Source: Symbiodinium natans (lineage: Eukaryota; Sar; Dinophyceae; Suessiales; Symbiodiniaceae). From it: 64,000 nucleotides of DNA. Under the pieces are notes generated by a model. It ran no database searches, had not been told where the DNA came from, and saw nothing but the letters and a program-made list of their open reading frames with translations. Made by a program: the position numbers and the translations under genes. The DNA is taken from assembly GCA_905221605.1 (NCBI GenBank), contig CAJNDS010000108.1, forward strand, positions 1 through 64,000. The letters are read 5' to 3'. This document shows, one piece after another, positions 27,341 to 31,305 of the stretch (position 1 is its first letter; every line of letters begins with the position of its first letter).

Positions 27341-27348
27341 ATATAATA
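27341..27348. other. Target-site duplication, left copy
   Basis: ATATAATA directly abuts the left terminal inverted repeat and is repeated exactly at 31,298-31,305. Eight base pairs is the duplication length known for Merlin/IS1016-IS1595-type transposases. Confidence 0.85.
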
Positions 27349-27388
27349 GGCTCCAGGGGTGAACCCGGCCCCTGCGTTTTGGCACTTT
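27349..27388 (+). repeat. Left terminal inverted repeat of the transposon
   Basis: It begins GGCTCCAGGGGTGAACCCGG and continues CCCCTGCGTTTTGGCACTTT. Its reverse complement is found at 31,258-31,297 with mismatches only at positions 3 and 8. A partial echo (GCTCCAGGGGCGAAGG) lies inside at about 27,438. Confidence 0.92.
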
Positions 27389-27495
27389 TATTCTGCATGA
27401 GGTACGCGACGTCGCGTCCATCGTGCATGTCGACACGCTCCAGGGGCGAAGGGTTTGTTTGCTATTTCAGTGTTGTGGTGCTGTCCACAAAAATA

Positions 27496-27795
27496 CCCAA
27501 GAAACCAAAACCAAAAAAACCAAAAAAACCAAAACCAAAAAAACCAAAAAAACCAAAACCAAAAAAACCAAAAAAACCAAAACCAAAAAAACCAAAAAAC
27601 CAAAAAAACCATTATTCAGGAAGTCTCCCTGTAAGAGTTCCTAGGAAATGGTTTTTTGGTTTTTTTGGTTTTGGTTTTTTTTTGGTTTTTTTGGTTTTGT
27701 TTTTTTTGTTTTTTTTGTTTTTTTTGGTTTTTTTGGTTTTGTTTTTTTGGTTTGTTTGTTTTTTTTTTATTTTTTCGGTTTTTTTTTGGTTTTGT
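27496..27795. repeat. Long A-rich/T-rich foldback inside the transposon
   Basis: Repeated CCAAAAAAACC/CCAAAACC units (about 27,500-27,611) are mirrored by GGTTTTTTTGG/GGTTTTGG units (about 27,651-27,795) on the other side of a ~40-bp spacer. The strand can fold into a hairpin with arms over 100 nt. Lys/Pro-rich and Trp/Phe-rich frames across it are artefacts. It may be a subterminal transposase-binding or foldback structure, or a transcription barrier (inference). Confidence 0.85.
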
Positions 27796-27883
27796 TGTTT
27801 TTCGTATGGAGCAGCGTATGATTCATGAAGCTGTTTGCTATCAAAGGTCAACCTGCACACGTTAGTGTAGTGTCTCTAGTGCT

Positions 27884-27955
27884 ATGTCGCGACGCGAGCT
27901 GCCACTAGACATCCAGAAAATCATTCGAGACTATCTTGTGGGACCCTTAGCATGA
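27884..27955 (+). CDS. Very short frame with F-box-like LPxDI motif
   Basis: An ATG opens 23 codons, MSRRELPLDIQKIIRDYLVG and three more, ending TGA at 27,953-27,955. The LPLDIQKIIRDYL pattern is amphipathic and F-box-like. It may be a first exon of the ATPase gene rather than a separate peptide, since the frame ends before the P-loop exon. A similar LPDSIACLVEQYL appears after the transposase at about 31,070. Confidence 0.25.
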   Translation: MSRRELPLDIQKIIRDYLVGPLA

Positions 27956-28022
27956 TAAAAGATTCGGCTTCGGTAGTGCTCTGCTATGGTATGTCGTTTT
28001 CTTTTAATATACATATATATAT

Positions 28023-29493
28023 ATGTGTGTTTCTCTTTGTGTGAAATGCAAGAACCTCCTCAAGATCGTCATCTACAACATGTGCCGTCTGCACCGACCG
28101 AATGGGCGACTTACATTGGTACTTGTGAAGATGCTGCCCACCATGCGACAGCATGCCATAACTTGGATTGGCCGGACTCGAGCTGGCAAATCCTTGGGAT
28201 CCAAAACTGTGCTGTTCATGCAATCGAAATATGAGATAGAGGCAGCTGAGCGCACGGACCTCATTCCCTCCATTGTGACGGCGAAACATCTCGATTTCTT
28301 CAAATCGGAGCCGCTCACGAAGTACAAGCCTGGAGTATTCGATGACGGGATGCTCCAGCGCATGGACTCCTCATTCTTGAAGGCATTCCTGAACCCCTCT
28401 GCGTCTTGGCTTCTGTATTCATACTTGCATGCTTCTGCTAACACAAACCTCATCTGCAAAATTCAATCCCGCACGATGCAACGCATCTCATTCCTGCCAG
28501 GAAGAGGATGCCACCGTCTGGGCACGCTACTCTTCTGCGCAATTTGATCAAGGGTCTGGACGACATGCTTGCAATAATCCCTATGACCGTAGGATTGACG
28601 ACGAGATGTTTGGTAGTATGCAGAGGAACAAGTTGTGGAGGATCCCCTACGACAAGTTTCTACAGCTAATCCAGCCATCTTTCTGTGCAGTTGAAGATCC
28701 GGAGGACATGGACGCAATTATGGCACGCACTCACCTCATTGTCATCACAGATCATGGCCTGTACTTCCGCGTAGCGAACACAAGCAAGGATCATGTGGAC
28801 TTCATCCGTTGGGAGGAGAATGCGCCCAAGGATTTGTTGTTTCCGTCACAAACCTGGGTTTTCAAGCAATACAAAATGAACCCCGACAAGCATCAACTTC
28901 CGCCTTCTTACCATGAAGATTGTCTGTGGTCCCAAGAAGTTCTTCGACGGCTTCTTCACGGTGAGTCAATTCCGACTTCATGTACCATTCGCACTCCACG
29001 TGGGCTCTTTGGTGATGCTGCGTCCGAATCCAAGCTGGGACTTATGCACATCAACACAGTACATATATAAAGGACCGCTGGGTAACCGTTCAGTTTTAAC
29101 GTAGTCGCATCTGTAAGGTCTACACGTGACGTTCATGCACATCTGCTTCCTGAACCGGACCTTCGCGTCAAAGTCAAGAAGGAAAAGGTTGATGCAGCTT
29201 TTCGTTCCCTCAAAGGTCAGGCAGTTACAAATCCCATCGACCTGGACTCGCCGTCTCCCAAGAAGTCCACCGCATCCTCGTCCACTTCAGACATGCCGTT
29301 GTCAAAGCGTGCCAAACTCACCGATGCTGTTAGCGTAGCAGCGCCGTCCAATCCTGCTTCCCCTATTCTTGCTCATGATGCTGACATAGACGATGATGAT
29401 GTCATGCCACAAGTTGGTCACGTCCCAGACGATATGGAGCAGGAACTCGAGCGAATGATGGACGAGGCCGACAACATGGATATTGCCGAGTGA
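28023..29493 (+). CDS. Transposon-encoded P-loop ATPase, SF3/Rep-helicase-like
   Basis: Three exons, 28,023-28,400, 28,501-28,960 and 29,105-29,493 (TGA), join in phase to 1,227 nt, about 408 residues. The first intron is exactly 100 nt with a GC donor and AG|G acceptor; the second is GT-AG. Walker A is GRTRAGKS (28,170-28,193). FDDGML near 28,340 fits a Walker B with paired acids. An Arg followed by NNPYD near 28,570 fits the motif C/sensor Asn of superfamily-3 helicases. The C-terminal third has an NLS-like KRAKL and an acidic tail (DIDDDD, then MEQELERMMDEADNM). A DNA-unwinding or ATP-dependent role in transposition is inferred. The true start may lie upstream (a nuclease domain is not seen). 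Other P-loop families such as AAA+ are possible. Confidence 0.72.
28401..28500 (+). other. GC-AG intron in the ATPase gene
   Basis: Frame continuity (LNPS to EEDATVWARY) requires removal of 28,401-28,500, which starts GCGTCT and ends GCCAG before GAAGAG. A GC donor inside a transposon gene shows that it uses the host's relaxed splice rules. Confidence 0.75.
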
Positions 29494-29501
29494 GTGTGTG
29501 A

Positions 29502-29683
29502 ATACCGGCGTAGGCGCACGACAGTTTTGTACAAAGCCTGGTCTCACGCATAGCCCGGCTTTGTCGTACGTCAGTCCAGCATCTTGTATGAGTGCCGGCA
29601 TGAGCGCGCAGCAGTTTTGCACAAAATATGGTCTTACGCATAGCCCGTCTTTGTCGTACATCAGTATAGCATCTATATGGTAC
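29502..29683 (+). repeat. Tandem duplication of ~90 bp between the two transposon genes
   Basis: Two head-to-tail imperfect copies begin ACCGGCGTAGGCGC and GCCGGCATGAGCGC. Each continues through CAGTTTTG-ACAAA, ACGCATAGCCC and CTTTGTCGTAC-TCAGT. A position between two same-strand genes suggests a promoter, trans-splice or transposase-binding role (inference). No long open frame of its own. Confidence 0.8.
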
Positions 29684-29773
29684 CCATGTCAGTCGATGCT
29701 CATGATGTTCACCTGACTTCTCCATGTTGTTGTGTAAGTGGCTCGAGATATTATAGTTATTTCTTTGTTCACA

Positions 29774-31078
29774 ATGGCATGCTATGCAGATTGGAATGCC
29801 TTCCGAGCCGCGGTTTCGTCTGCAGACCTTCTCAACAGGACCCAATTCTTTGACATCGTGAAGTACAGTCGTGTTCGTGATACTGGTGGCCTCCCGGATA
29901 CCTTTGGTACGCGAGCATTGCTCGCAGCACAGGCTTTGCATCTTGTGCCTCCTGAGCGTGTTTGTCCGGGTTGTCAGACGCCTTACCAACTACGCTTCAA
30001 GAGCTCACGATATCGTTGGATTGGAGCTCGGTATGAAACCCAAGGCTGTCTAGAGTGTCTAGACCAGCAGCCTGAGGCTAGCTCAATTGGATTCCTCTCG
30101 AACGTGAAGCAACACATGTGGATGCCTAAATTGGAAAGTTTCATGATGTGGATATATGAATATCCTCGACAGCAAATTCTTCGCGAGTTGCATCCCACTG
30201 ACCACAAGCGAATTGATGCTTGGACCCAATCCTTCCAGCAGACATTGAGTGCATGGTACCAACTACAACTCAACCAGGGGTTCGACGGTCCACTGTTCCA
30301 ACGTCTTAACGCTGCATCTTCCAAGCGGTCTCGCCGTGCAGTTACGAAGAAACCTGCTTCAAAGGCCTTCAAACGACCATCAGCATCTTCGAGCCAGACT
30401 ACATTGAAGCGACCTTCGGCATCTACTATGAAACGACCAAGTGTGAAAAAAACACATATCAAGTTTGCGGGAAAGGCTCGTATCTTCATCGCTGATGAGA
30501 CGCACTTGAACAAACGCAAACGAAATGCTCTCTCTCGCAATGGTCGCCCGCAGCGAGATCAAGTATGGCTTTGGGGGGCCGTGCTACATGAACACATCAA
30601 GACTCATTTCATCTTCAGGATCTTGGACCATCCTGATGATGCTTTGGACGGCAAACCTCGTGGCCACAAGGAGATGCTTAAAAACATCCAAACATTGGGA
30701 TTGAGGCGAGGAGATATCTTTGTCTCCGACAAGTGGAAGGCCACGGTCTCGGCATTCAACTCTTACAAGAACACGAACAATTTCTCCGAAGCGGATGTTC
30801 GCCATGAGATAGTCAACCACAGTCAGGGAGAGATTACCAATTCCAATGGCTTCTCTACAAACGCCATCGAGTGCAAGTGGTCCGTAATTAAGCGTTGGAT
30901 CCGTCGGCGAATGTCCGGGATCCTACCGTCGCATTCAGATCGCCAAAAATGGCGTCTCCTCATAGATGAGTATCAGGCCCGCAGCTTGCTCACAGCGAAC
31001 GGCCAACACTCTTTTGATCACGGTAACCTCATCACAGTACGCGTGCGCGATGTCGTACGTCTTTTCCAAGTTGCCTGA
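29774..31078 (+). CDS. Merlin/IS1595-type DDE transposase
   Basis: A single exon from ATG 29,774 (an in-frame GTG lies at 29,738) to TGA at 31,078 gives 434 residues. An N-terminal zinc ribbon has C64-x2-C67 and C92-x2-C95. A basic linker of about 40 residues repeats KRPSAS, KRPSAS and KRPSVKK, likely nuclear targeting and phosphorylatable. The catalytic core has IADETHL (D241), VSDKWKA (D319) and NAIECKW (E366), with the VNHSQGEITNSNG stretch before the Glu that in this family precedes the DDE glutamate. The D-to-E spacing (46) is about ten longer than the roughly DD36E usual in the group, an insertion. The enzyme should excise and insert the element through the 40-bp terminal repeats, making 8-bp duplications. 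The frame is intact. Confidence 0.88.
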   Translation: MACYADWNAFRAAVSSADLLNRTQFFDIVKYSRVRDTGGLPDTFGTRALLAAQALHLVPPERVCPGCQTPYQLRFKSSRYRWIGARYETQGCLECLDQQPEASSIGFLSNVKQHMWMPKLESFMMWIYEYPRQQILRELHPTDHKRIDAWTQSFQQTLSAWYQLQLNQGFDGPLFQRLNAASSKRSRRAVTKKPASKAFKRPSASSSQTTLKRPSASTMKRPSVKKTHIKFAGKARIFIADETHLNKRKRNALSRNGRPQRDQVWLWGAVLHEHIKTHFIFRILDHPDDALDGKPRGHKEMLKNIQTLGLRRGDIFVSDKWKATVSAFNSYKNTNNFSEADVRHEIVNHSQGEITNSNGFSTNAIECKWSVIKRWIRRRMSGILPSHSDRQKWRLLIDEYQARSLLTANGQHSFDHGNLITVRVRDVVRLFQVA

Positions 31079-31257
31079 CAGTATCGCTTGCCTCGTCGAA
31101 CAATATCTCGCGCTTCAGATGCTTGAAAGATATGCTTTGCAGCTGATATCTCTTGCCATCACCTTGGATATGCATTGCACGCAAACCTGCATGCGCTTGT
31201 CTCTGTCCGCAGCTATGAACACATCAAAACGAGTGAGTTCGTTTTGTGTATTTATAT

Positions 31258-31297
31258 AAAGTGCCAAAACGCAGGGGCCGGGTTCACCCTTGGAACC
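31258..31297 (-). repeat. Right terminal inverted repeat of the transposon
   Basis: Read on the minus strand it begins GGTTCCAAGGGTGAACCCGG and continues CCCCTGCGTTTTGGCACTTT, differing from the left repeat at two positions. Confidence 0.92.
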
Positions 31298-31305
31298 ATA
31301 TAATA
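31298..31305. other. Target-site duplication, right copy
   Basis: ATATAATA, identical to 27,341-27,348, directly follows the right terminal repeat. Confidence 0.85.

Follow-up and report, generated by a model that had tools for sequence, protein, structure and literature searches.

In a 64,000-nucleotide stretch of the Symbiodinium natans genome (assembly GCA_905221605.1, contig CAJNDS010000108.1, positions 1 to 64,000; the window), a DNA transposon of 3,949 bp has been identified at positions 27349-31297. The element carries a gene for a DDE transposase of the IS1595/Merlin type and, upstream of it on the same strand, the remaining part of a gene for a P-loop ATPase. It is probably a copy of a two-gene transposon that has transposed and has lost an internal segment, and the ATPase would serve as an accessory transposition protein. 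A wider proposal, to which we give about even credence, is that one lineage of P-loop ATPases forms a portable transposition module that has passed between three or more kinds of transposases (IS1595/Merlin, an unassigned DDE-like type and a KDZ-like type) within one eukaryotic genome. Such a module would be a eukaryotic counterpart of the strategy used by MuB, IstB and TnsC, with no detected relative and without being bound to a single transposase superfamily.

The boundaries of the element were obtained by an end-matching comparison and recovered again by a general ends scan, which looked for GG-starting inverted ends of 24 bp accompanied by an 8- or 9-bp duplication. The left 40-bp terminal inverted repeat (27349-27388, plus strand) starts with GG and agrees with the right one (31258-31297, minus strand) at 38 of 40 positions, leaving two mismatches. 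Both sides are flanked by the same 8 bp, ATATAATA, at 27341-27348 and 31298-31305, a perfect target-site duplication. In an 11-kb stretch around the element the scan returned a single pair of ends, the one at 27349/31297, and the same kind of criteria gave no match in 50 block-shuffled versions of that stretch. The left 40-bp end is also present in the copies C946, C2309 and C691. An earlier note, made from the letters of the window, had described these repeats, the perfect duplication, a size of about 3.95 kb and an intact transposase, and all four descriptions are borne out.

The transposase is encoded by an open frame of 434 aa at 29774-31078 (plus strand). It matches the NCBIfam model NF033547 (IS1595) over the catalytic part with an E-value of 5.4e-8 and 33 bits, which is under the curated cut-off of 75. 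The same model matches the transposases of the distant type L019 (E 5.7e-9) and of C1718 (E 1.7e-6), both also under the cut-off; in a full alignment the L019 protein is 26% identical to that of the window. Pfam, which includes an IS1595 model, gave no match to these transposases. Three features agree with the Merlin/IS1595 superfamily: (i) an IS1595-type DDE domain; (ii) an 8-bp target-site duplication, perfect in five of 16 stretches scanned and conserved at seven of eight positions in one more; (iii) ends starting with 5'-GG, for which only the window ends are an independent test, because the ends scan itself required GG. The superfamily is usually described as having one gene, that of the transposase, whereas an ATPase gene lies upstream at 23 of the 31 loci considered below. 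Two further resemblances of the transposase were dismissed as chance: one to window positions 60.2-60.5 kb (E 0.065), made of short pieces with frames broken by stops, and one of its profile to a clostridial neurotoxin construct in PDB (E 0.0058 and 0.015), confined to short, weak stretches.

The association of the two genes was followed through the window's own assembly (759 Mb, 2,543 contigs) by searches that score best candidates only, so that all locus counts are lower bounds. IS1595-type transposases of the window type and its distant relatives (L019 type), together designated T1/T2, gave 31 matches with the window transposase and 27 with the L019 transposase, which merge into 31 loci. 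At 23 of these an ATPase is located upstream on the same strand, 222-882 bp away from match to match, a placement with a chance of about 0.0003 per locus. All 22 T1/T2 loci spanning at least 1.2 kb show the pairing, and so does one shorter locus (C2324). The eight loci lacking an ATPase (C1202, C1767, C1906, C2067, a second C2324 piece, C2416, C2446 and C3:252908) are partial matches of 102-935 bp. Full-length ATPase queries revealed at C3:252908 (L017, 4406-5248) an N-terminal ATPase remnant directly before a C-terminal transposase remnant; the first search, made with the truncated protein of the window, had missed the ATPase remnant. The locus resembles an internally deleted element of the same two-gene kind. 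At C1202 no ATPase was detected nearby even with full-length queries. Near-identical loci were counted singly, although some of them could be duplicates created by the assembly, as C1709 and C1742 seem to be a single locus.

The same association is seen from the side of the ATPase. Searches with the ATPases of the window and of the distant C121 type returned 105 and 71 matches, respectively; all rows of the former search and seven of the latter, merged, make up 83 ATPase loci. A transposase-like gene follows downstream on the same strand at 71 of these, with a gap of 222-1879 nt, namely a T1/T2 transposase at 23 loci and a further protein type, T3, at 48. Within 6 kb of the 23 paired T1/T2 loci and of all T3 loci, the other arrangements found were tandem neighbours only; a separate check of the eight T1/T2 loci lacking an ATPase added the second C2324 piece described below. 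The ATPases of the C121, C1990 and C1920 types are just 23-31% identical to that of C946, yet occupy the same place before a transposase-like gene. The suggestion of the earlier note, a lineage equipped with a second, P-loop protein, is thereby strongly supported, and proves broader than proposed, as the ATPase also precedes other proteins. As side observations, ATPase-transposase pairs form tandem groups of two or three at C2074 (252415-262475) and C1920 (240220-254577), and the distant IS1595-type element L019 contains a further open frame of 286 aa (992-1849) upstream of the ATPase, as do L018, L020, L021 and L022. Between L019 and L022 the extra frames share 32% identity along 77 aa (E 7.6e-7), and scans of this frame against family models gave only weak matches of a low-complexity type, far under cut-off.

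The P-loop gene of the window had been taken for an intact three-exon gene, a claim that comparison with other copies overturns. The spliced model (28080-28400, 28501-29021 and 29118-29493, with predicted splice sites) does stay open. However, the copies C946 and C2309, whose identity to the window element along 3,180 bp is 99.7% and 99.5%, contain a further segment of about 1.3 kb, including the 5' portion of the ATPase gene, that is absent from the window at the junction 28118/28119. In C946 this extra DNA codes for the N-terminal approximately 280 residues, in a frame starting with a methionine (MASFRSEAG), and the full-length ATPase is predicted to be a spliced protein of 675 aa. The window ATPase begins at about residue 284 of that protein, from the Walker A motif onward and without the N-terminal domain, and the ATG at 28080 maps to C946 DNA upstream of the long ATPase frame.

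The remaining gene parts, all on the plus strand, are the exon 1 remnant with Walker A and Walker B (28119-28400, by alignment to C946), intron 1 (28401-28500, GC-AG, 100 nt), exon 2 with a conserved Asn and Arg (28501-29021, by the spliced model and alignment), intron 2 (29022-29117, GT-AG, 96 nt) and exon 3, which encodes a low-complexity acidic tail (29118-29493). The predicted intron 1 lies at the same place in six close copies (window, C946, C1718, C1742, C198 and C3), and its donor is GC in the window and C946. In the distant types C121 and C1990 no intron interrupts the ATPase frame at this position. In the tail (29118-29493 and its equivalents in C3, C121 and C1990), a VKKE-like stretch followed by an IDLD- or VIDLD-like stretch can be recognised by eye in divergent copies. 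These stretches are reminiscent of SUMO-attachment and SUMO-binding motifs.

Evidence of mobility extends to other copies. The ends scan was applied to 16 stretches, the window and 15 further loci, and both ends with a perfect 8-bp duplication were found in the window, C946, C1718, C2389 and C1990. In each of the last four both genes lie inside the ends: C946 is 5,201 bp long with the duplication GCTTCGCT, C1718 is 4,708 bp long with CAAACATA, C2389 is 5,870 bp long with ATATATAT and C1990 is 5,991 bp long with ATATAAAT. A duplication with seven of eight positions conserved was found at C691, and C2309 has both ends with no clean duplication. The coding state of the copies varies. C946 contains a stop within the transposase match, and in C2309 and C691 the transposase is split over two frames; where intron 2 would lie, the ATPase gene of C691 also contains roughly 2.6 kb of additional DNA. 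C1718 and C1990 are free of stops both in the transposase and in those ATPase frames that were read.

The partners of the ATPase are not restricted to the IS1595 type. The T3 protein, found downstream of the ATPase at C198 and C121, has, as judged by eye, a zinc-ribbon-like N-terminus and acidic residues in transposase-like settings; family scans gave no meaningful match for it. Since the profile comparison of T1/T2 with T3 also lacked a meaningful match (8.6% probability), T3 was not filed under IS1595. The T3 search gave 112 matches at 90 loci, 48 of which lie downstream of an ATPase, and among loci spanning at least 900 bp an ATPase is located upstream at 39 of 61. A putative KDZ-like transposase follows the ATPase at two other loci, C2197 and C2198. 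The C2197 protein matches PF18758 (KDZ) at E 2.9e-5 with 24.3 bits (cut-off 26.6) and CxC5 at E 5.4e-5 with 23.8 bits (cut-off 26.9); the C2198 protein matches that of C2197 at E 2.9e-15 and itself has no match to any KDZ model. Downstream of the ATPase at C3:18918 there are split frames with similar-looking motifs by eye and no Pfam or blastp support.

Relative to the ATPase of C946, those of C198, C3 and C121 are 74%, 64% and 31% identical, respectively. Their partners are distributed differently: the ATPase of C946 precedes an IS1595-type transposase, that of C198 a T3 protein that is 49% identical to that of C121, and that of C3 neither type. Because ATPases 74% identical adjoin transposases without detectable similarity, the ATPases appear, on this sequence comparison, to have exchanged transposase partners. 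A tree of nine ATPases was poorly resolved, and the two T3-paired rows were grouped in 0% of 200 bootstrap trees.

Seven ATPases, 23-74% identical to the first of them, share invariant residues G301, G306 and K307 (Walker A), D358 and D359 (Walker B), N403 (Asn) and R453 (Arg). The gene is under purifying selection: for C1718 versus C1742 the ratio of non-synonymous to synonymous substitution rates (dN/dS) is 0.10 for the ATPase and 0.15 for the transposase. The remaining pairs show saturation at synonymous sites; their corresponding ratio of proportions of differing sites (pN/pS) lies at 0.20-0.33 for the ATPase, compared with 0.36-0.38 for the transposase. Neither Pfam nor NCBIfam yielded a sequence similarity of the MuB/IstB/TnsC type. 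Two resemblances in PDB, of the ATPase profile to a myosin light chain (E 0.73) and of one exon segment of the ATPase to a chain of Cas12 (E 0.93), were short, weak stretches and were set aside as chance. The collection viral_contigs yielded no relatives, whether queried with alignment A2, with the transposase or with exon 2 of the ATPase, and in genome_contigs alignment A2 found none outside this genome; the transposase gave one match, at E 4, among plasmids. These searches relied on few short patterns and are weak tests.

A number of results weigh against the view that the ATPase is an accessory transposition protein of a mobile two-gene element. The ATPase has no family match in Pfam, NCBIfam, PHROGs or PDB sequences, and single-sequence structure models were poor, with predicted local distance difference test (pLDDT) values of 39.9 and 46.2, the latter for exon 2. 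Only five of the 16 scanned stretches have both ends and a perfect duplication, the remainder having mostly one end or none; within the stretches scanned, C198, C3 and C121 gave no ends. ATATATAT and ATATAAAT are situated within AT-repeat DNA and are weak as duplications. The second transposase piece at C2324 is in opposite orientation to the C2324 ATPase, 1.8 kb away, and is read as part of a rearranged copy. Twelve of the 83 ATPase loci have neither a T1/T2 nor a T3 partner, C2197, C2198 and C3:18918 being those read downstream. Finally, 42 of the 90 T3 loci have no detected ATPase, including 15 long members of a single high-copy family (C1776, C292, C657, C868 and 11 others), which shows about 32% identity to the T3 query and has frames of 516-579 aa. 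The ATPase may therefore be dispensable for T3, or sometimes too divergent to be found.

The main rival explanation is that the ATPase is a replicative helicase of superfamily 3 (SF3), similar to the Rep proteins of CRESS viruses, which would unwind or copy the excised element, so that movement would be partly replicative. The order of Walker A, Walker B (DD), an Asn in a C.N or similar context and an Arg fits SF3; all four motifs are invariant in the seven sequences. The same order suits other AAA+ ATPases equally, however, and no SF3 or Rep family match was obtained in Pfam or PDB up to an E-value of 10, the best PHROGs value being 0.28. In the N-terminal domain an HUH nuclease motif was not recognised by eye. 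The SF3 identity is thus a reading of motifs and is unproven, since Pfam, NCBIfam, PHROGs and PDB gave no family matches, and we consider a replicative helicase unlikely.

Somewhat less probable still is a cargo gene that would promote survival of the element by modulating host responses or copy number, with no part in movement. Cargo genes can be conserved, and the T3 loci without a detected ATPase would suit such a role. A co-acting pair nevertheless accounts better for a gene order, strand and close spacing that stay constant in elements that have diverged widely, the ATPase being absent only from partial T1/T2 matches and its place being held in spite of the low identity of the C121, C1990 and C1920 types. 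A host gene captured once by chance and copied along, the outcome envisaged by the earlier note if other copies held the transposase alone and the ATPase occurred at a single locus, has next to nothing in its favour beyond the truncation of the window gene. It is rejected on the pairing counts (23 of 31 T1/T2 loci, including every long one, and 71 of 83 ATPase loci with a tested partner), and the pairing extends across families between which transposase identity is 26% over the full alignment.

For an accessory transposition ATPase, the following course can be proposed. The transposase would cut the element out and paste it in, and the ATPase would bind ATP and DNA, assemble on the target or on the transposon ends and recruit or license the transposase, as MuB, IstB or TnsC do. 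The ATPase is likened to these proteins by its supposed way of working and not as a shown member of their family. Participation in the same reaction as the transposase is suggested because the ATPase is conserved, adjacent and found with several partners; it would be portable, being paired with the IS1595 type, the T3 transposase-like type and the KDZ-like type. Lacking the N-terminal approximately 280 residues, the window copy probably depends on ATPase made by another copy.

Other features of the element are subterminal and intergenic. A-rich and T-rich arrays of tandem repeats in inverted orientation (arms 27484-27611 and 27683-27810, 75% complementary) would be able to form a long hairpin; folded as DNA, 27485-27810 gives a z-score of -7.6. 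Between the genes two 90-bp tandem copies, 80% identical by self-comparison (29495-29674), are retained in C946, C2309, C691 and C2324. Rfam gave no match in the window. Elsewhere in the window, a long tandem array with a 55-bp unit occupies 1-1086, and a tandem-repeat scan revealed TTTAGGG arrays. Such arrays, the GC-AG intron and the size of the genome would be in keeping with a dinoflagellate.

MuB, IstB (IS21), TnsC (Tn7) and TniB are bacterial transposition ATPases. The present elements resemble these systems in that a single mobile element holds adjacent genes for a P-loop ATPase and a DDE transposase, and differ in their eukaryotic host, in the lack of any sequence similarity found and in gene order, the ATPase being 5' here and the transposase usually first in the bacterial systems. 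With the SF3 helicases of CRESS-DNA viruses and plasmids they share the motif order; unlike those, they show no profile match and no recognised HUH domain, and have a DDE transposase partner inside inverted ends. Among eukaryotes, the Symbiodinium Merlin families Sy.m_F1, Sy.k_F1 and Sy.k_F2 (Lopes et al. 2021, PMC8101967) have the same IS1595-type DDE domain, 8-bp duplication and GG ends according to that description, and Sy.m_F1 also has repeats in inverted orientation near its 5' end. Sy.m_F1 is given there as 2.57 kb, unlike the window element, and the Merlin proteins of S. microadriaticum as 181-445 aa; an extra frame of Sy.k_F1 is antisense and was judged to be chance, and the words helicase and ATPase are both absent from the main text of PMC8101967. 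AcademH transposons, which belong to another superfamily and have a helicase of a different class, are similar as eukaryotic DNA transposons with a helicase-type enzyme; their encoding of a helicase is described by Kojima 2020, as cited in PMC10045372. A tapeworm densovirus paper (PMC6880638) was set aside, as its passages mention Merlin and superfamily 3 helicase separately. Among open-licence papers found by literature searches, judged by title and start of abstract, none appears to describe such an ATPase-transposase pair; subscription papers, preprints and Repbase were outside this scope.

Under the interpretation proposed here, some members of the Merlin/IS1595 superfamily would gain a second gene. 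In bacteria, Mu, Tn7 and IS21 depend centrally on accessory ATPases for target choice and for activation of a DDE transposase, and no such shared ATPase is known to be described for eukaryotic cut-and-paste transposons. If the interpretation is true, this dinoflagellate genome would offer many natural combinations of ATPases and transposases, paired and re-paired, in which their mutual recognition could be tested.

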